Source: Methanosarcina barkeri MS (GTDB lineage Archaea; Halobacteriota; Methanosarcinia; Methanosarcinales; Methanosarcinaceae). Taken from it: DNA of 64,000 nt. The notes beneath the pieces are model-generated. The model was not told where the DNA came from, searched no databases, and saw nothing but the letters and a program-made list of their open reading frames with translations. Below, in pieces: positions 2,306 through 56,527 of this stretch (positions are counted from its first letter, which is position 1; every line of letters starts with the position of its first letter). The translations under genes and the position numbers were made by a program. The DNA lies in the NCBI RefSeq assembly GCF_000970025.1, contig NZ_CP009528.1, positions 2,839,168 through 2,903,167 of the forward strand. Direction: 5' to 3'.

Positions 2306-3136
2306 TTAGTGCTCGTGTATATGCTCTCTATAGTGAACATGCAGATGTTCGTGCACAAGCTTGCCATGAACGTGCATGTGTTCATGGATAAGATTTGTAG
2401 TAAGTAAAAGTTCCCTGTTATTGAGTACTGTTTCCACATTTCCGTCCACAACAATTCTATGATCTTCGCCCATAACTATGGCTCTTTTGCTAATCTGCTC
2501 TACTGTTTCAAGATCATGAGTAGCGGTAATTATCGTCTTTCCCGCTTTCCCAAGCTCCTGCAATAGCTCTACTAACCAGAGCTGAGTCCTTGGATCCAAT
2601 CCTGCGGTGGGCTCATCCAATAAAAGGACATCCGGGTTATTAGCCAAAACAGCTGCTATACAGACTTTTTTCTTCTCTCCTCCGCTCAGGGTATGAGGAG
2701 ATCGGTCTTTAAGCTTGGTAATCCCAATCATCTCCAGGACTTCCATCACTCTGGTTTTAACTTCTTCCGGAGTCATATTGAGCTGCATGGGTCCAAAGGC
2801 AACTTCTTCATAAACTGTGGAAGAGAAGAGTTGTACATCTGAGTTCTGAAAGACAAATCCTACTCTTTTCCTGAAATAAGACCTAAATTCATTATCTTTA
2901 ATGGCATCGAAAACATCTTCGCTTATCTGATTGTCAAAAGCATAGAATTCTCCCAAAGTAGGATATATAAGTCCATCTAGAAGGGTCAGTAGAGTCGATT
3001 TCCCACTGCCATTAGAGCCCATTATAGAGATTTGCTCACCTGGCTTTACTTTGAAGCTGATATCATTTAATGCATTTATTTTTCCAACATATGTATATGA
3101 TACATTTTTCACATCAAAAATTGTTTCCATGTTCAT
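2306..3136 (-). CDS. nikO: Nickel/cobalt ECF transporter ATPase (NikO/CbiO) with His-rich tail
   Basis: ABC ATPase of 276 residues that powers group I ECF uptake of Ni2+ or Co2+ from the cytoplasmic face. Walker A GSNGSGKST is at about 40-48, the signature LSGGEKKKV near 150, Walker B VLLLDEPTAGLDP near 170 and the switch His in TATHDLE near 207. The last 26 residues carry 11 histidines in HxH spacing, an unusual metal-binding tail that supports a nickel/cobalt role. It is the last gene of nikM-nikN-(gap)-nikQ-nikO and starts one base after nikQ ends. AAGGTGA lies just before the ATG; a second ATG two codons in has better spacing. Nickel is favoured by the NikM/NikN type, but cobalt is not excluded. 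Confidence 0.92.
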   Translation of the reverse strand: MNMETIFDVKNVSYTYVGKINALNDISFKVKPGEQISIMGSNGSGKSTLLTLLDGLIYPTLGEFYAFDNQISEDVFDAIKDNEFRSYFRKRVGFVFQNSDVQLFSSTVYEEVAFGPMQLNMTPEEVKTRVMEVLEMIGITKLKDRSPHTLSGGEKKKVCIAAVLANNPDVLLLDEPTAGLDPRTQLWLVELLQELGKAGKTIITATHDLETVEQISKRAIVMGEDHRIVVDGNVETVLNNRELLLTTNLIHEHMHVHGKLVHEHLHVHYREHIHEH

Positions 3137-3137
3137 A

Positions 3138-4073
3138 TCACCTTATGATGTTATGGGAGATCAACACTAGCAATACACTCATGGATACCGCAATTGCTCC
3201 TGAAATGTAATCGCGATTGCGCATTTTGAACTCCTGCATTATCTTAACATCACCATTGTACCCTCTGGACATCATGGCTGCATGAACTTTTTCACTTGTA
3301 TCCAGAGACCTTATTAGCGTATAGCCGATTCGTCCACCAACCCATTTCTGCTCCTCGAACATGCCTCCAGTCTTTATGGTTCTGGCTTTCTTGGCAATAT
3401 ATATCTCCCGCACCATATCAGTTAGCAAAAAAATGTATCTGTAGGCCATCTCCAGCGTGAAAACATAGATTTTAGGAACTCCCACCGAGCGCAGGGATTT
3501 AAAAAGAACCTTCTGAGGTGTGGTGAGAAAAAGCAAAACTACGGCAGATACGCATGCTGCGACACGCATTATAAATATCACAGCAAAATTAACGCCCTGT
3601 TTGGTGATGTATATGCTATCTGGAAGTGAAAATGGTCCCAGGTGTGCCCCAGAGCCCAGATAAACTAACCTGATAAGAGGATCTCCTGGAAAAAAGACAT
3701 TGAAAATCATTGGTATGGCAATGATTCCTGCAAAAATTGGTATGAAGAGCCACACCCGCTTGATAAAGAATAAAACATCGATCTTGCTGAGATATGCAAA
3801 AAGCAGAGTAAGCATATAAACAAAGATCAGTAATCTCAGGTCTCCGATTAAACTCGTTGCGAATATCACGGCCAGGATGGAAATCAGCTTGGCTCTAGGG
3901 TCCAAACTCTGGAGGAAACCATCGCGTTTAGAGAAGCTATCTGAGACAAAAGCTTCTTCCAAAAAGCCAAAGATTCCGTCAATCGTCTTTCCTATGAAAC
4001 CCTTCTTACCGTGATGCACCGCTGAGCACCGGCATGGACCGGTATCTGTTTTTGTCATCCAATCTGGGATCAT
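3138..4073 (-). CDS. nikQ: Nickel/cobalt ECF transporter transmembrane protein (NikQ/CbiQ)
   Basis: The 311-residue T-component, with about five hydrophobic segments. It carries the CbiQ-type coupling helices that contact the ATPase: the AYRYIFLLTDMVREIYIAKKAR region and RSLDTSEKVHAAMMSRGYNG near the C-terminus. The cytoplasmic N-terminus has an extra Cys/His-containing stretch (GPCRCSAVHHGKK) that could bind metal. GGGTGA precedes the ATG. A 309-bp gap with a long inverted repeat separates it from nikN, so it may have its own promoter or an RNA processing site. Confidence 0.92.
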   Translation of the reverse strand: MIPDWMTKTDTGPCRCSAVHHGKKGFIGKTIDGIFGFLEEAFVSDSFSKRDGFLQSLDPRAKLISILAVIFATSLIGDLRLLIFVYMLTLLFAYLSKIDVLFFIKRVWLFIPIFAGIIAIPMIFNVFFPGDPLIRLVYLGSGAHLGPFSLPDSIYITKQGVNFAVIFIMRVAACVSAVVLLFLTTPQKVLFKSLRSVGVPKIYVFTLEMAYRYIFLLTDMVREIYIAKKARTIKTGGMFEEQKWVGGRIGYTLIRSLDTSEKVHAAMMSRGYNGDVKIMQEFKMRNRDYISGAIAVSMSVLLVLISHNIIR

Positions 4074-4382: not shown

Positions 4383-4697
4383 TTAATTTTTGGCGGCTTT
4401 TTTTCCTATAAAATACAGGAGGCCACCGCCGATTACTACACCTATCACTGCTGACAGAATATATGCTACAGAAGACATACTCATCGACTCATCGCCACCC
4501 ACAAAAGCATAATCAGGCATTGGAGCGCTCCAAAGATCCGAGAGCTCTTCAAGTCCTGGAGGCACAAAACCAAGCTTCTCCTTGACCTCTTCAGGCCCCC
4601 ATTCACCGAAGGTTTCACCAACGGCCAAAAGACCCAGTGGTGCAAAAATCATAAGTATTATCAAGCCAATGCTTAAGTTTCTTATTATTTTCTCCAT
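4383..4697 (-). CDS. nikN: PDGLE-domain protein of the nickel/cobalt transporter (NikN)
   Basis: A 104-residue protein with an N-terminal hydrophobic helix (about 9-28), an extracellular domain with the PDGLE-family core (GPEEVKEKLGFVPPGLEEL) and a C-terminal helix (about 77-98) ending in KKAAKN. PDGLE/NikN proteins are the small accessory subunit that works with NikM in nickel ECF transporters, in place of CbiN of cobalt systems. It begins 10 bp after nikM ends, so the two are surely co-transcribed. The presence of NikN rather than CbiN is the best argument for nickel as substrate. Confidence 0.88.
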   Translation of the reverse strand: MEKIIRNLSIGLIILMIFAPLGLLAVGETFGEWGPEEVKEKLGFVPPGLEELSDLWSAPMPDYAFVGGDESMSMSSVAYILSAVIGVVIGGGLLYFIGKKAAKN

Positions 4698-4706
4698 GTT
4701 CTCACC

Positions 4707-5426
4707 TCAGGCTGTGACTGCCTTCTTCATTTTACCCTTCTGCACTTCTGATTTTTCTCTATAAAATAGAGACACATCCGTTCTCTGGATATAGGCAAAA
4801 ATAATTGCGGTAATCACTGCTTCCAGAATGCTAAATCCAAAAGCATGTTCTATTACCATGGCAGGAACAGTTACACTCAATGGGTAGGGCATATACAGTG
4901 GGGTTCCAGCAGCCGTGTGTTGCAAGATAGGCTGTATTCCGAATTCAACACCTGTACAGAAAGCTGCTATGGTCAGAGAACACCAACCAGCTATAGCCGA
5001 AGCAATAATTCTCTTAGAGGACGTGATATCAGAATTTCCGCTAATAAGCTTATAAACATAATAACCGACAAAGGGTATTACAACTCCCATATTGAAGCAA
5101 TTCGCGGCTATGGCCGTAATTCCTCCATCACCGAATATCAATGCCTGCAATACCAGAGTTACAGAAATAGCTATCACTCCTGCCCAGGGACCGAGAACGA
5201 TGCCGATAATTGCGCCTCCAACGGCGTGACCCGTGCTACCTCCTGGAATAGGTACATTGAACATCATTATTACAAATGAAAAAGCAGCTGATAGTGCCAG
5301 CAGAGGGACCTGTCTGGACTTAAGTTCTGTGTTCAGTTTTTTTCCGGCATAATACCATATCGGGATCATAATAATCCAAAACGCGACATAGGTATACGGC
5401 CCTAGATATCCATCTGGAATATGCAT
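4707..5426 (-). CDS. nikM: Nickel/cobalt ECF transporter substrate-binding subunit (NikM/CbiM)
   Basis: The 239-residue S-component begins MHIPDGYL. In NikM/CbiM the His at position 2 inserts into the protein and binds the metal, together with a His at about 67, here in GGSTGHAVGG, with His at position 67. About seven membrane segments follow. It is the first gene of a leftward operon nikM-nikN-nikQ-nikO. A TATA box about 65 bp upstream and an AAGGGAAG ribosome site support the start. Nickel supply matters here because methyl-CoM reductase, CODH and hydrogenases need it. Confidence 0.93.
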   Translation of the reverse strand: MHIPDGYLGPYTYVAFWIIMIPIWYYAGKKLNTELKSRQVPLLALSAAFSFVIMMFNVPIPGGSTGHAVGGAIIGIVLGPWAGVIAISVTLVLQALIFGDGGITAIAANCFNMGVVIPFVGYYVYKLISGNSDITSSKRIIASAIAGWCSLTIAAFCTGVEFGIQPILQHTAAGTPLYMPYPLSVTVPAMVIEHAFGFSILEAVITAIIFAYIQRTDVSLFYREKSEVQKGKMKKAVTA

Positions 5427-5502: not shown

Positions 5503-5892
5503 AGAATATTTTTTGAAAGAAAGGGAATTCAGCTTCTTTATATATTTTACAACATTTTGCTAGTTATTTTTCTGAACAGTGTCCTGACATGGCAGGATTG
5601 TTCTATATTACTTATATATATTTTGGTATTACTTTTTTTGATAAATTAATATCTTACATATAATTCAATATCCATATTTAATCCGTAAATAAAATTAAGT
5701 GCTCTTATCTCTATTTTTTATATCCAAATAGTTATTATTAAATGATTTTATATCATCTTTGTAAAAATTCTATTTATAAATCAACATTAAAAGGCTGAAA
5801 AGACGTGAGTAAAAATAGATCAAACCATTCAGTTCAAATTAATGGAGATTTTTTAGGGAATTTTTACGGGTCCTTATGTCCTTCTTTAATTA

Positions 5893-6031
5893 TCTGAACC
5901 TTATCCCTATCTGCTTTCACAGACAGGGTGAAAAGAAATTCAGGTACTTAAACTATTCAGGAGGTAGTTTAAGTTTTGTGTCTGTTCGCAAGAGACATAT
6001 TTACCTATACTACTAATGATATTTAACACTT
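5893..6031 (-). ncRNA. Candidate structured small RNA, copy A
   Basis: A 139-nt element shared with 16578-16715. It has (plus-strand terms) an outer helix CTGAA...TTCAGG at 5894-5944, a perfect 10-bp hairpin ACTTAAACTA/TAGTTTAAGT at 5946-5974 whose loop contains AGGAGG, a hairpin TGTCT-GTTCGCAAG-AGACA at 5979-5997 and the conserved block ATTTAACACTT at 6021-6031. I infer the minus strand: GTGTTAAATA would then be a TATA-like box about 25 nt before the first hairpin, and the loop would read CCUCCU, able to pair with Shine-Dalgarno sites. The strand and function are not proven. Confidence 0.45.
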
Positions 6032-6620: not shown

Positions 6621-6775
6621 AGTTAATCCCAAAAATTATAATTGTGTCTCTGAACCTCGTATTTGGAATAATCAATAGAGTTCCAGATCATAAAACCTAG
6701 TTTTGGAACTCTCACTGATTTTATAGTTCTGGAACTTCATTGATTTGAGAATAAAATTGGTTTTGGGATGAACTA
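6621..6775. repeat. MITE-like inverted-repeat element, family R1, copy 1
   Basis: GTTAATCCCAAAA at the left and TTTTGGGATGAAC at the right are near-perfect inverted ends of a 155-bp noncoding element. Related ends with the core ATCCCAAAAC...GTTTTGGGAT occur at 16335-16466, 39337-39447, 40969-41221 and 56317-56445. Confidence 0.6.
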
Positions 6776-13449: not shown

Positions 13450-13893
13450 ATAGCGAACAAATCTACGGATGTATGCCCCTATCAGAAAGCCTGGACCCTT
13501 GAAAACTGGGTTCGTAGATTTTTGCAAAACCCTTACAAAATCGCTGGCAAATATGTCTAAGAAGGTCAGGTTGGTATGGATCTGGGATGCGGCCCGGGTT
13601 TCTTTTCTCTGGCAATGGCGAAGCTGGTTGGTGAAAACGGAAAGGTCATTTCGGTAAAGGTCATTTCGGTAAAGGTCATTTCGGTAAAGGTCATTTCGGT
13701 AAAGGTCATTTCGGTAAAGGTCATTTCGGTAAAGGTCATTTCGGTAAAGGTCATTTCGGTAAAGGTCATTTCGGTAAAGGTCATTTCGGTGGATGTTCAG
13801 GATGAGATGCTTCAGATATTAAAGTGTAAAAGTGAGCGTGAAGGGCTTAGTTCTCGCATCGTTCTTCATAAAATTAGTTTTAAAGGTTTTTGA
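13450..13893 (+). pseudogene. Methyltransferase pseudogene with pentapeptide minisatellite
   Basis: A small class I methyltransferase gene in decay. GGAGG at 13439 is followed after 7 nt by ATA (13450) where ATG is expected, then ANKSTDVCPYQKAWTLENW. An in-frame TAA interrupts at 13558. The frame resumes with the SAM motif GMDLGCGPGFFSLAMAKLVG, then ten KVISV units made by a 15-bp tandem repeat, then VDVQDEMLQILKCKSERE. It ends early at TGA after FKGF, so the C-terminal half is missing. Start loss, nonsense codon, expansion and truncation together make function very unlikely. Confidence 0.85.
13641..13790. repeat. 15-bp minisatellite, ten perfect copies
   Basis: AAAGGTCATTTCGGT occurs ten times head to tail without a mismatch, in frame (KVISV)n, at the strand that follows motif I of the broken methyltransferase. 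Perfect identity means recent expansion. Confidence 0.97.
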
Positions 13894-15420: not shown

Positions 15421-15880
15421 ACTTTTCTTGAGAAAATCACATTCCTGTTTTTAATGCAGTGTTGCAAGCTTCAAATCTTTTAAAATTCCTGGGTATTATG
15501 TCTACTCCCCTTTTTCTGCTTTTCCAAACAAACTTTGGAGTATTTCGATCCATCAAGAGCAAACTTATTTCCAATTAACGCCAAGAAGGATAAGAATCCG
15601 TATTTTATTAAACAATGGCACGAAAAAGTTATATACATCGTTCAGAAGTTTTAGTCAAACCTCATTTTAACTCCGTATGCCGAGAATAGATCATTTTTCT
15701 ATACAAAAAATGGCTATACTACTTTATGTCGGTTCTACATTACTAAAGTGTCCTTTGGTCATAATTTTATAATTAATATATTTATTTTATATTAATACCT
15801 ACATGAAAAAAGCATATATAGTAATACATACAATAAATAATGTAACATTTAGATCTAAATTAAACTGTATGGTGGGTATT

Positions 15881-16300
15881 ATGATAGAAACAGAACTTAT
15901 GAGGATAGGTGTCTCTCTTCCAGATACCCTTCTGAATAAATTCGATGAAATCGTTGAGAAAAGAGGTTATTCTTCCCGCTCGGAAGGCATGAGAGATGCT
16001 ATCAGGAGTTATATTTACCATTATGAATGGATAAACGACGTTAAGGGCTATCGTATAGGAACAATTGCGGTTATTTATGACAACAAGAGAAAAGACCTTG
16101 CAAATGTTTTAACAAATATCCAGCATAACTATTCTCACCTGATAAGATCTTCAGTGCATGTTTACCTTGATCGTGAAAATTGTTTTGAACTAATTTTTCT
16201 CAATGGAAAAGGTGAAGATATTGCAGAACTTACTGAATCTATAATAGCCTTGAAAGGAGTCAAATTTTCAAAACTTACAACTATATCATTAAATAAATAA
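15881..16300 (+). CDS. NikR-like nickel-responsive regulator, one ligand changed
   Basis: A 139-residue protein: N-terminal ribbon-helix-helix ([39 protein letters not shown]) and C-terminal ACT-like nickel-binding domain. Compared with E. coli NikR, the ligands equivalent to His76, His87 and Cys95 are present (His82, His93, Cys101), but the one equivalent to His89 is Tyr95. GGTGG precedes the ATG at 15881; upstream frame extension has no ribosome site. It could regulate the nikMNQO operon 10 kb away, though the Tyr change may alter metal choice or geometry. A TATA-like GCATATATAG lies near 15811. Confidence 0.85.
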
Positions 16301-16334: not shown

Positions 16335-16466
16335 GAGCTCATCCCAAAACCAGCTTTATACTAAGAACTGATAAGAATTTAAGACCTATTCCCGTGATCA
16401 GAAACTCATTGATTATTCTTAATTCCATATTCGGAGAAGCAGTTTTGAGTTATGGAATAGGTTCTC
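16335..16466. repeat. MITE-like inverted-repeat element, family R1, copy 2
   Basis: Starts GAGCTCATCCCAAAACCAG and ends CAGTTTTGAGTTATGGAATA plus GGTTCTC. It is closely similar along its length to 56317-56445, including the internal ATTCCCGTGATCAGAAACTC block. Noncoding. Confidence 0.75.
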
Positions 16467-16577
16467 TTATAAACAAGTATATTCTTCCTTTTAAGAAGCA
16501 TTGGCCTGGATGAGTTTTAAACTATTGAATACTAAGTAAAATAGGAAATTTTGAACTCAAATTTGAACGCGAAAACA

Positions 16578-16715
16578 CCTGAAATTCCTCACCCGCTGCA
16601 CATACAGGTAAAGAATTCAGGAGTTATGCGTTCAATTCACAGATTTAGGAGGCTTTTCTATTTTTGTCTGTTCGCTTAGACATAGATACATACGACAAAC
16701 TGTTATTTAACACTT
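16578..16715 (-). ncRNA. Candidate structured small RNA, copy B
   Basis: A 138-nt element matching 5893-6031 in length and block order: helix CCTGAAATTCCTCACC / GGTAAAGAATTCAGG (16578-16621), AGGAGG at 16647-16652, hairpin TGTCT-GTTCGCTT-AGACA (16665-16682) and ATTTAACACTT (16705-16715). The middle hairpin of copy A is not kept. It lies 280 bp after the NikR-like gene. As for copy A, the minus strand is preferred because a TATA-like block then precedes the first hairpin and CCUCCU is exposed. Confidence 0.45.
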
Positions 16716-17862
16716 TTCATTACATTTGTGATATTTGATATTATTATATTGAAAACTTGTATTACTAATTTTAGGTCAACATTCAGGAAAAAACACTTTA
16801 ACTTTTACAGTACCTGAGAAATATGAAGTTAATAACCTTAGTAGGACAGTGTTAACTAATTTATATTTAATAGTTTTCTTCTTTTTTGGTTCAATTGGGC
16901 TTGACAATTTTTATAAGTTTAAAAAAATTTATTATATATTCTATGTAATTCCATGCTTTTTTACTACAATCAAGATTGTAACGGGGACGCGAACATATCC
17001 CCATTGCTTGTAGGGGTGCGCCAGCGCAACGAGAGTAACAATATTCTCAAAATACAAAAATAGGCAAAGAATTTCCTAAATTACTTAAAGATAAATATCC
17101 TTCTCTTTTTGAAGACAGAAAATATTGAAGTACTATCACCAGGGCACTTCTCATGAATACTTTCTTGCAAACTTAACATAAATCTACTAAAATATATTAA
17201 AGTAGATAATTATTTATATGATCGACATGATCTAGCCCTCCATCACATGATTAAAAGTTCAAACTCCGCATTTCTTGCAGTATACCGATGTTTTTTTCTC
17301 CTTCTTTTTGGGGATCAGTTCCTTGCTTAACAGGCTTTTATTTACGCTGGTTTGTAGAGAAAATGATTATTCCGAACTGAAAGTATTAAAGACAAACAGA
17401 TCAAAAATTAAACGTAAGAACGCCATACAATTCAATATCTATGAACGCAATCTACTAAATATAAACTTTAAAACCGGTTATTTACTGATTAATACTTTCA
17501 CTCCGCTATATTACTCTATTAATAAAAAGTCTGCATTCTGCTGTATGTATCGAAAAACGGGGTAGCATGAATCCGAAAATTGTCATATATATGAGGAGTG
17601 AAATCAACGTCATGTAATTATCACTACTTATTTATAATAATATATGGAATTATCTGCCTGAAAAAAATGGCTCGATAAATAAATATAAACTTTAGGTTTT
17701 TCAAAAAAGTTTCTTAAAATTCATAAATTCATATCATTTCTGGATTTTTTAGAGATCTAACTTAAAAATCCAGAATTTACTTTAATCTAAAATCCAGACT
17801 TTATTCTGACCTTAAATTTTCATCTAACCGATTCAACTGGACAAAAACCCGAGAGAAGGAAA
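16716..17862. other. Gene-poor stretch upstream of uvrA
   Basis: Very AT-rich except for a short GC-rich island at 16980-17035 that can form two hairpins (GGGGA...TCCCC at 16983-17002 and TGCG-CCAG-CGCA at 17017-17028), possibly a small structured RNA. The 96-codon open frame at 17275 has no ribosome site and no protein features, and is not called. The uvrA promoter should lie near the right end. Confidence 0.4.
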
Positions 17863-20880: not shown

Positions 20881-20981
20881 AATGTTTTTTAATATTTATT
20901 TGGTAAATTTAAGCCGGTTTAATCTAATTTAAACCCGATGAAAGCCTAATTAAGCTGATTAAACCAATTAAATTGATCAAA

Positions 20982-21214
20982 TTGACTAAACTGACTAAAC
21001 TGACTAAACTGACTAAACTGACTAAACTGACTAAACTGACTAAACTGACTAAACTGACTAAACTGACTAAACTGACTAAACTGACTAAACTGACTAAACT
21101 GACTAAACTGACTAAACTGACTAAACTGACTAAACTGACTAAACTGACTAAACTGACTAAACTGACTAAACTGACTAAACTGACTAAACCGATGAAACTG
21201 ATTAAACTGATTTA
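20982..21214. repeat. 9-bp microsatellite-like array, 22 perfect copies, between uvrA and uvrC
   Basis: CTGACTAAA is repeated 22 times without error at 20991-21188, with degenerate copies on both sides (TTGACTAAA, CCGATGAAA, CTGATTAAA). A multiple of three, it is open in one frame as (TKL)n but has no ribosome site. It fills almost the whole 377-bp uvrA-uvrC spacer. Confidence 0.97.
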
Positions 21215-21257
21215 AGCTCCCTTTAAAAACTGAAAAACTTGAAAAAGAGGTTTAAAA

Positions 21258-22817
21258 ATGATTGACCTGGAGGCTCTACCTCACCTACCTGGCTGTTATC
21301 TTTTCAAGAATGAAGAAGGGACTGTGATTTACGTAGGCAAGGCAAAGGACCTCAAAAAGCGGGTAAGCAGCTATTTCCAGAAACGAGACCATGATCCAAA
21401 AACTGCGAGCCTTATAGAGGCTGTAACGGACCTCGATTTTATTGTCACGAACACTGAAGTAGAGGCTTTTCTTCTGGAAAATACTCTTATCAAAAAACAT
21501 TGGCCAAGGTATAATATTGCTCTTAAGGACTCAAAAAGGTATGCCTGCATTCATTTAACTGATGAAAAGTTTCCAAGGATCAAGCTCGCCCGGAAAAAAG
21601 CAGATGGTGGAAGCTTTTTTGGGCCCTTTGTCTCGGCAAAGGAAAGAGACTACATTTTTGAAGTTGTAAGAAAGACTTTCCAGCTTCGGACCTGTAAAAA
21701 GATGCCGAAACGGGCCTGCCTCAGATACCATATAGCGGCATGCAGCGGGCCCTGCATAGGTGCAATTTCCGCAGAAGACTATGCCGAGAAAGTGAAGAAA
21801 GCGGCCTCGGTCCTGAAAGGCAATATCAGAGAGCTTATCGAGTCTATGGAAAAAGAAATGAGGGAGCTGGCATCGAGGCAGCAGTTCGAGCAGGCCATGG
21901 TTCTCAGGGACGAGATTGCAGCCCTTGAGTATCTTCAGGAAAAACAAAATATGGAGAGGCAGAAAAAGCATAATGAGGATATTCTGAACTACATTGTCAG
22001 GGATGATACCGTTTATCTCATGCTCTTCAAGGTCTACAAAGGTACACTTGAAGATAAACAGGACTATGTTTTTGCCTTTGGGGAAAATTTTCTGGAAGAA
22101 TTTCTTGTACAATATTATTCCGAGAACGAACCTCCTGAAGAACTAATTCTTCCTGAACCTCTCGAAGAATCGCTTGTTGACTTCCTTTCTCACGTCAAAG
22201 GAACAAAAGTCAAAGTTACGGTTCCGAAACAGGGAGAGAAAAAGGAACTTCTCGCCCTTGCCCTGAAAAATGTTGAGATAGGTTTCTTTGGAGACCGGAA
22301 AAAGCTCGAAGCCCTGCAGAGTAAACTATCCCTTCCGAAACTTCCGAATGTCATAGAATGTTTTGATATCTCTCATCTCTCAGGCACGGCTACGGTCGGT
22401 TCAATGGTTCAGTTCCGTGGGGGCAGACCTGATAAACACAATTATCGCCGCTTCAAGATCGAGAGTGTTGAAGGGATCGATGACTTTGCTTCCATTGCAG
22501 AGGTTGTACGCAGGCGTTATTCTCGCTTGCTCGAGGACAAGCATGACCTACCTGACCTTATCATTATAGACGGGGGAAAAGGACAGCTTTCTTCAGCTTT
22601 TCAGGAACTCAGAAAGCTCAAAATCAGGGTTCCTCTTATTTCGATAGCCAAGCGGGAAGAAGAAATCTATGTGCCCGGAATCAAGTCTCCTCTTCCCATC
22701 AAAAAAAACGAGAAAGCCTCTCTTTTTGTCCAGGAAATCCGGGACGAAGCTCACAGGTTTGCAATTACCTATAACCGCCTGCTAAGGCAAAAATCTATGA
22801 TTCCTAAAAATGACTGA
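21258..22817 (+). CDS. uvrC: Excinuclease ABC subunit C, short form
   Basis: A 519-residue nuclease subunit that makes both cuts in nucleotide excision repair. GIY-YIG domain at the N-terminus (LPGCYLFKNEEGTVIYVGKA, 9-28), Cys-rich segment RTCKKMPKRACLRYHIAACSGPC (about 145-170), UVR motif binding UvrB (about 195-232) and the RNase H-like endonuclease domain with IECFDISHLSGT and LIIIDGGKGQL. It ends shortly after DEAHRFAITYNR, so the C-terminal helix-hairpin-helix region of the ~600-residue bacterial proteins is absent. GAGGT precedes the ATG. Confidence 0.95.
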   Translation: MIDLEALPHLPGCYLFKNEEGTVIYVGKAKDLKKRVSSYFQKRDHDPKTASLIEAVTDLDFIVTNTEVEAFLLENTLIKKHWPRYNIALKDSKRYACIHLTDEKFPRIKLARKKADGGSFFGPFVSAKERDYIFEVVRKTFQLRTCKKMPKRACLRYHIAACSGPCIGAISAEDYAEKVKKAASVLKGNIRELIESMEKEMRELASRQQFEQAMVLRDEIAALEYLQEKQNMERQKKHNEDILNYIVRDDTVYLMLFKVYKGTLEDKQDYVFAFGENFLEEFLVQYYSENEPPEELILPEPLEESLVDFLSHVKGTKVKVTVPKQGEKKELLALALKNVEIGFFGDRKKLEALQSKLSLPKLPNVIECFDISHLSGTATVGSMVQFRGGRPDKHNYRRFKIESVEGIDDFASIAEVVRRRYSRLLEDKHDLPDLIIIDGGKGQLSSAFQELRKLKIRVPLISIAKREEEIYVPGIKSPLPIKKNEKASLFVQEIRDEAHRFAITYNRLLRQKSMIPKND

Positions 22818-38965: not shown

Positions 38966-39706
38966 TTTAAAGCACCTTTTTTTTAAGCTTCTTTAAATTA
39001 TTAGTATTTTTCTAAGTTTTACGAGAAAACTAAGATCGAATAACTTTATTATATACTATAGTTATCTAGTTTCTTAGAGCGTGTATTGAAATTAAACTTG
39101 ATCCTACAACTGGGAGCGGACTCATACATTTGACTAAGAAACGGTAGCATTAAACCGTTAAATGCTTAATATGTAAGTTTAAACCATGATTCTACTTTCG
39201 GCGGGTAACATTAAAAATTAAAATATTTTTCCGATGCCATTATTAGGATATGAATCACTATTTATAAAATTTAAAATTTTTAACTTGCGGCTTGACTCTC
39301 ACTAAATCTATAACCACTAAAATATTATTTTAAAATCTATCCCAAAACCAACTTTACTCTCAAATTAGTAAAACTTCAAAACTATTTTCGTGATTAGAAA
39401 ATCGGGATCCGACATTAAGAGAAATAATTTTGAGTTTTGGGATCAGCTATTATTAAAGTTTAGTACAAGAAATTAATATTTGGTCATTGTAAGCCTTAAA
39501 ACTCCACACAATTATTAGATCTTATTTTAAAATCGCCATCATCAAAAATTACTAAAAATTAAATGTCGACCTGCTGAATATAGAATGATGTTTAAAAAGT
39601 AGATCTATAGAATTTGTACACTTGATATACAAAAACAATAGCAGCAAACTCATAATTTTCTAAAATTAAAATTACAACAATGACGTTTAACGCACTTGAT
39701 TTTGCA
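38966..39706. other. Gene-free stretch with an R1 repeat
   Basis: Contains R1 element copy 3 (39337-39447) and, at 39087-39180, a stretch that resembles 53880-54010 (TGATYCTACAAYT and CTTATACATTTAAACTGAAG-like blocks). No ORF supported. Confidence 0.45.
39337..39447. repeat. MITE-like inverted-repeat element, family R1, copy 3
   Basis: Begins CTATCCCAAAACCAACTTTA and ends GAGTTTTGGGATCAGC; 111 bp, noncoding. Confidence 0.6.
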
Positions 39707-56107: not shown

Positions 56108-56527
56108 CCAGAAACACAGATATAAAATTCCTAGAGGCAGAAATACGGACTTTGAAATTGTATCGTCAAGTTGTATCTTCAGTTCGTCAAACTCATCTGC
56201 TTGCTCTGCAGATGGAGAACTTCCGTCTAGAAATAAGGGCCTATCCAAAGAGTGTTGTGACTTACAATATTTACAACTGTCAATATGTAAAATCGGAACG
56301 GATACTGATATTATATGAGTTCATCCTAAAACCAGTTTTATACTCAAAATTGATACGAATTTCAGAACTATTTCCCGTGATCAGAAACTCATTGATTATT
56401 TAATTCCATATTTGGAGAAGCAGTTTTGAGTTATGGAATAGGCTCTATACCTACTATAATATTTAATATGTGATAAATCTTTAATATGTAATAAGTTAAA
56501 AAATCTCATCTTTTTGCGGTGGTAGGA
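56108..56527. other. Gene-free stretch with R1 repeat copy 5
   Basis: 56240-56293 (CTATCCAAAGAGTGTTGTGA...) resembles 52058-52112 (CTGTCCAAAAAGTGTTATGG...), a second repeat family. R1 copy 5 follows at 56317-56445. Confidence 0.5.
56317..56445. repeat. MITE-like inverted-repeat element, family R1, copy 5
   Basis: Starts GAGTTCATCCTAAAACCAGT and ends CAGTTTTGAGTTATGGAATA plus GGCTC; nearly the same as copy 2 at 16335-16466 over the whole length. Confidence 0.75.

Follow-up and report, generated by a model that had tools for sequence, protein, structure and literature searches.

A candidate nickel-sparing RNA of the sRNA41 family beside a nikR-like gene in Methanosarcina barkeri

In a 64-kb stretch of the Methanosarcina barkeri MS genome, hereafter called the window, an earlier note had singled out two copies of an intergenic element, one (copy A) next to a nickel transporter operon and the other (copy B, 16578-16715) next to a gene resembling that of the nickel regulator NikR. 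The question raised by this locus is whether such an arrangement is fortuitous or whether the RNA and the nickel genes are members of a common regulon and, in the latter case, which genes the RNA would control.

A multicopy sRNA41 gene on the minus strand

The claim that 16578-16715 belongs to a small-RNA family was borne out, since copy B is a gene for sRNA41 (Rfam RF02905), whose covariance model it matches at 16569..16681 on the minus strand; it scores 54.8 bits (E 1.7e-6), where the gathering score is 45. This is the only Rfam match at gathering level in the window; a second one, to mir-87, stayed below its own gathering score and was rejected. The element is structured and conserved as had been proposed, but the strand had to be corrected. 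None of 200 shuffled sequences folds as well as the minus-strand RNA (z -2.87), whereas the 138-mer taken as a plus-strand RNA was discarded, 86 of 200 shuffles being equally good (z -0.16). The 138 nucleotides first delimited correspond to most of the copy B RNA and its promoter up to the TATA box, read on the reversed strand. On the minus strand, the TATA box TTAAATA lies at 16704..16710 and is kept across 58 copies of the family, and the seed GCCUCCUAAAUC, complementary to the ribosome binding site (RBS) of cdhC, lies at 16642..16653. Copy B is convergent with the nikR-like gene (nikR2, 15881..16300, plus strand) and is aimed at its 3' end.

Copy A (5890..5994, minus strand, with a TATA box at 6020..6026 on the same strand) scores 44.3 bits, slightly under the gathering score, and has a fold z of -4.29; in the predicted fold its seed sits in a hairpin loop. 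A blastn search of the M. barkeri genome with the 138 nt of copy B recovered copy B itself and two other sites and missed copy A, so the two copies are distant relatives. The common length of 138 nt given for them earlier could not be recovered, the Rfam matches spanning 113 nt for copy B and 105 nt for copy A. As for the compensated helix changes, they are found at the level of the family: among 58 copies, 6 of the 9 pairs of the apical helix are changed on both sides in some copy.

The Rfam model gives three matches above cut-off in the 4.57-Mb M. barkeri genome, with copy A just under it, and 82 rows in 24 of 30 Methanosarcina genomes at E<=0.1. A model of 157 positions covering promoter and RNA (R1), built from 58 of these 82 rows, has 113 matches in 29 of the 30 genomes, from 1 to 9 per genome and six in M. 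barkeri MS. Its training rows, among them copy B with 136.9 bits, are bound to match; of the 113 R1 rows, 32 are absent from the Rfam-model set, and one Rfam-model row (G079:C81:28589) is not recovered by R1. The single Methanosarcina genome without an R1 match is 60% complete. Over 60 genomes of the family, R1 matches were obtained in genera g1 (6 of 6 genomes), g11 (4 of 4) and g2 (1 of 2, E 5.5e-4), and in no further genus among the 14.

Many copies at unrelated places had been named beforehand as the mark of a dispersed repeat. Copies are indeed numerous, as many as nine in a genome and clustered in some genomes, and a majority lie away from nickel genes (see below). However, conservation among the 58 copies is highest in the TATA box and in the seed CCTCC..A-AT, and promoter, seed and terminal hairpin are retained while the remaining parts diverge, so that a plain dispersed repeat fits poorly.

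The window also carries repeats of other kinds. A dispersed intergenic repeat (ATCCCAAAACC... / AATTCCATATTYGGAGAAGCAGTTTTGAGTTATGGAAT) occurs in both orientations at 6723-6774, 16336-16470, 39339-39463 and 56400-56446, its second copy falling between nikR2 and copy B. A 9-nt tandem array of many units about 90% alike (20892-21260) lies at the end of a UvrA-like ORF, ahead of a UvrC-like ORF, and a perfect 15-nt tandem array of AAAGGTCATTTCGGT (13641-13805) runs in frame within a short methyltransferase-like ORF. Elsewhere in the genome, a group II intron domain (RF00029) was noted at L045:9400-9476 (minus strand), some 3 kb away from a different sRNA41 copy.

Nickel-gene neighbours and a predicted common operator

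Both neighbours were confirmed. The product of nikR2 contains the NikR family domains RHH (RHH_1) and NikR_C (E 2.3e-28) and matches the NCBIfam model 'nickel responsive regulator' above cut-off. The four nickel ligands of NikR are His, His, His and Cys; the protein reads HHYC and is called NikR-like because its third His is replaced by Tyr. The operon beside copy A is of the CbiM/PDGLE/CbiQ/ATPase type, all on the minus strand: NikM/CbiM (4707..5426, PF01891), a NikN-like PDGLE protein (4383..4697, PF13190), NikQ/CbiQ (3138..4073, PF02361, and TIGR02454 above cut-off) and a NikO/CbiO ATPase (2306..3136, ABC_tran), whose top NCBIfam matches, to models of ECF ATPases, stay under the cut-off.

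The neighbourhoods of the copies were then compared, as the earlier note had suggested, for 120 copies with flanking sequence (113 from the genus and seven from g11 and g2) within a radius of 1.5 kb. A NikR-like gene was found near 22 of them and a CbiM, PDGLE or CbiQ gene near 21 more, making 43 copies close to a NikR-like or nickel/cobalt-transporter gene. The other 77 have none of these genes in that radius, so it would be wrong to state that every copy adjoins nickel genes, and one widespread copy type has other neighbours. Seen from the side of the regulator, the 30 genomes contain 74 full-length NikR rows (four fragment rows being set aside), 18 of which have an sRNA41 copy within 1.5 kb, and in the 11 complete genomes nine NikR genes are linked in this way, compared with 0.12 expected. 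None of the 24 rows of a divergent third NikR group has a copy within 2 kb.

The promoters of nikR2 and of its paralogue group nikR1 have in common the element AGTAATAC-N14/15-GTAATAT/GTATTAT, read from 25 nikR promoters (the genome G047 lacking a good site). An earlier guess for the operator, TCATAC between TATA box and start, was replaced by this upstream element. An independent test is provided by a whole-genome search, for which the pattern was AGTAATACN{14,15}RTAAYAT. In the 4.57-Mb genome, AGTAATAC-N14/15-RTAAYAT has exactly three matches, all inside the window, and the reversed control pattern has none. They lie in the promoters of copy B (16738..16766, minus strand), of the nikR-like gene (15820..15848, plus strand) and of the nikMNQO-type operon (5605..5633, minus strand, with a TATA-like stretch in the spacer). 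Since the second of these predicted operators falls inside the longest ORF call, the start of nikR2 is probably at 15881. The same pattern has 32 matches in 17 of the 30 genomes, compared with five for the reversed control: 14 precede sRNA copies, five nikR, three nikM operons, two a binding protein (best NCBIfam model NikA, below cut-off), one a lipoprotein and one a gene between a copy and CbiM, whereas six have no evident relation. Thus, 26 of the 32 stand at nikR, at copies of the RNA, or at genes that encode or are linked to a transporter. In M. barkeri MS, the exact operator precedes only copy B among six copies, and it is absent from the three promoters examined for the third NikR group.

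We also ran a matrix trained on nikR promoters only over the 120 sRNA promoters; 64 scored above the 95th percentile of shuffles, 30 above the 99th and nine above the 99.9th, although these matches are not independent cases because the copies are related by descent. Most sit near position -88 relative to the RNA start and have a spacing of exactly 14, and others sit near -57 over the BRE/TATA region.

These data argue strongly for an operator shared by the copy B, nikR2 and nikMNQO-type promoters, of the kind that would define a NikR regulon, and NikR presumably binds at the predicted sites. Given the nine linked NikR genes against 0.12 expected and the three operator matches, the closeness of sRNA41 copies to nickel genes is, as judged from the genomes, not a matter of chance. 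The hint of a shared nickel regulon is accordingly supported, by nucleotide sequence only. It could be argued that sRNA41 controls acetyl-CoA synthesis genes in response to nitrogen, or constitutively, and that its vicinity to nickel genes and its element were acquired by co-duplication with nikR, without any nickel response. In M. mazei, sRNA41 falls under nitrogen limitation and represses the CO dehydrogenase/acetyl-CoA synthase (ACDS) genes, according to a review (PMC5867862), and because nikR2 and sRNA copies adjoin, the parts could be duplicated together. However, the element is also present at unlinked nikR1 genes and at nikM operons, and we regard this explanation as unlikely.

The position of the half-sites bears on the sign of the regulation. 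At nikM and nikR the element overlaps the TATA box. The sRNA promoters contain two half-site pairs, the stronger upstream of BRE/TATA and the weaker overlapping it; it is over BRE/TATA that the copies of g11 have their best site. The overlap at nikM and nikR and the weaker pair over BRE/TATA are the grounds on which repression, hence induction of copy B by low nickel, is proposed; this sign is a weaker point of our reading, and activation is possible, given that the TATA box is preceded by the strongest operator pair.

The regulator itself may also have changed. Among 17 sRNA-linked NikR rows, the ligands are HHYC in eight, HHHC in four, HRYC in two and HCYC, HYYC and HHYG in one each, so that 13 of 17 depart from HHHC, compared with 2 of 28 nikR1 or other-genus rows, the remaining 26 of which have HHHC. 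When 63 NikR proteins are placed in a tree, most of the linked ones cluster as a fast-evolving offshoot of the slowly evolving nikR1 group (four changes of the linked label compared with 15.3 in shuffles, the bootstrap leaving the grouping unsettled). NikR2 is a possible sensor with an altered metal response. The stronger upstream pair and the altered ligands would both suit a scheme in which NikR, or the altered NikR2, activates the RNA, which would rise with nickel or another signal and balance the ACDS subunits instead of saving nickel. We consider this scheme quite improbable, in view of the second pair lying over BRE/TATA, of its being the best site in g11, and of the same element sitting on the TATA box at nikM and nikR.

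Complementarity to ACDS gene starts

The copy B seed GCCUCCUAAAUC is complementary to GATTTAGGAGGC at every base, and perfect complementarity over 12 nt is found with the cdhC RBS of both ACDS operons. In the M. barkeri genome, GATTTAGGAGGY has six matches: two lie in sRNA copies, two at the cdhC RBS, one at the RBS of a ferredoxin-like DUF362 gene, and the last away from any start. The 10-mer ATTTAGGAGG has 14 matches, of which three are in sRNA copies, six others have no plausible start, and only five are at plausible gene starts, namely both cdhA, both cdhC and the DUF362 gene. It is the places and not the number that matter here, since the reversed control of ATTTAGGAGG matches 11 times. 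The cdhB RBS differs from ATTTAGGAGG. In Methanosarcina, ATTTAGGAGG is present in 27 of the 29 located cdhA RBS and in 18 of the 22 located cdhC RBS; it stands at cdhC in three genomes of genus g11, and TTAAGGAGGC is found in the one readable genome of g2. In the other genera examined, ATTTAGGAGG is absent from the cdh RBS, where CGGAGG, CGGAGA or similar sequences occur instead. The genus border of the RBS motif is thus nearly the same as that of sRNA41.

Duplex energies were computed for 86 gene starts of the M. barkeri genome, the cdh genes included, on the sequences irrespective of accessibility. Copy B ranks cdhC over all background starts (-21.8 kcal/mol), whereas copy A and the copy at 4058522, both adjacent to transporters, prefer cdhA (-24.3 and -24.5 kcal/mol). 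The DUF362 gene (L210, C2:1814195) pairs with copy B better than cdhC does (-27.3 vs -21.8 kcal/mol) and may be a further target. RBS pairing is weak for nikR2 (-6.6 kcal/mol) and also for nikM, and both genes were set aside as targets of copy B. Across the 120 copies, an exact CCTCC is found in 92, and contiguous complementarity to cdhA or cdhC reaches at least 10 bases in 69 and at least 12 in 50, genomes in which the cdh genes were not located being compared against the genus-type RBS. The best match of the 21 transporter-linked copies is cdhA in 12 and cdhC in five (four lacking CCTCC); for the 22 NikR-linked copies it is cdhC in 10 and cdhA in seven (five lacking CCTCC), and cdhC is preferred in 48 of the 77 unlinked copies. 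Taken together, the sequences make a strong case for pairing of copy B with the cdhC and cdhA RBS.

The core CCUCC is the anti-Shine-Dalgarno sequence of 16S rRNA. This identity, together with the copy number, the clustering and the orientation of copy B towards the nikR2 3' end, could be accommodated by an element that is a dispersed repeat, a general anti-Shine-Dalgarno decoy or a cis effector of the nikR2 3' end, devoid of specific ACDS targets. We find this very improbable, because promoter, seed and hairpin are preserved amid divergence, the extension AAAU(C) matches cdhA/cdhC and few further starts, and copy B shows weak pairing to the RBS of nikR2.

A proposed nickel-sparing RNA and its relation to known systems

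CdhA and CdhC are the nickel-carrying subunits of ACDS. We think it probable, from operator and target sequences, that copy B is a NikR-controlled nickel-sparing RNA, RyhB-like in logic. The RNA would be transcribed from the minus strand under a TATA promoter governed by NikR-type half-sites. With ample nickel, Ni-NikR would repress copy B along with nikMNQO and nikR; in nickel shortage, nikMNQO, nikR and the sRNA41 copies would all be released, raising uptake and lowering CdhA and CdhC synthesis. The single-stranded CCUCCUAAAU would pair with the Shine-Dalgarno sequences of cdhC and cdhA in the ACDS mRNAs and block translation; among the ACDS genes, copy B matches cdhC best, and the transporter-linked copies A and 4058522 match cdhA best. 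Nickel would be spared because these subunits carry nickel sites. A nickel response of copy B is what we infer from this arrangement. The wider proposal, that sRNA41 is an archaeal nickel-sparing family under NikR with a division of labour between cdhA and cdhC and an altered-site NikR paralogue as its regulator, is tentative, and we give it slightly less than even credence.

The nickel-sparing reading of copy B draws on family membership, the shared operator, target complementarity and co-occurrence across genera; with regard to metal sparing proper, a predicted NikR-type operator at copy B and complementarity to the starts of nickel-subunit genes are observed, both read from the DNA. Counting against it are the reported nitrogen dependence of sRNA41, the altered NikR ligands, the exact operator in one of six copies of the genome, the 77 of 120 unlinked copies and the better pairing of the DUF362 gene. 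Moreover, the ACDS of Methanosarcinaceae was slightly up or stable when digesters ran short of several trace elements at once (PMC5859356).

Acetate-derived methane passes through ACDS, a nickel enzyme. If the proposal is true, sRNA41 gains a signal besides nitrogen, nickel control of methanogenesis becomes directly testable in genetically tractable strains, and, so far as the open-licence literature shows, no metal-sparing RNA would have been proposed for archaea before it. In that literature we found no publication linking sRNA41 with nickel, nor its nickel regulon, copy number or cdhA/cdhC preferences in print. The family is known; its multicopy extent, nickel-gene linkage, shared operator and cdhA/cdhC preferences are new.

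The half-sites GTAATAC/GTAACAT with 14-nt spacing are near the NikR signals of deltaproteobacteria, GTGTTAC-[N13/14]-GTAACAC and the reversed GTAACAC-[N13/14]-GTGTTAC (PMC545781), and the 22 bp between half-site starts recall the E. coli signal GTATGA-N16-TCATAC (PMC7055735). The letters and the orientation of the half-sites differ from both, and here the operator also precedes sRNA genes. Copy B resembles M. mazei sRNA41, which is reported to mask the RBS in ACDS mRNAs (PMC5867862), by belonging to RF02905 above the gathering score and by its type of target. M. mazei sRNA41 is described as nitrogen-dependent, whereas we find many copies, a NikR-type operator, nickel neighbours and cdhA/cdhC preferences. 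With RyhB, the iron-sparing RNA under Fur, copy B would share the logic of a metal sensor repressing an sRNA that withholds metal-using proteins; it would differ in that nickel and NikR take the place of iron and Fur, in being archaeal, in the proposed masking of the RBS and in its unrelated sequence. Like Helicobacter pylori NikS, it is predicted to be an sRNA gene under NikR, although the reported targets of NikS are virulence and colonization factors and not nickel enzymes, and the RNAs are unrelated. Finally, like Streptomyces s-SodF, it is proposed to arise in nickel starvation and to switch off a nickel enzyme, but s-SodF derives from a 3'UTR, depends on the Fur-family regulator Nur and is bacterial.
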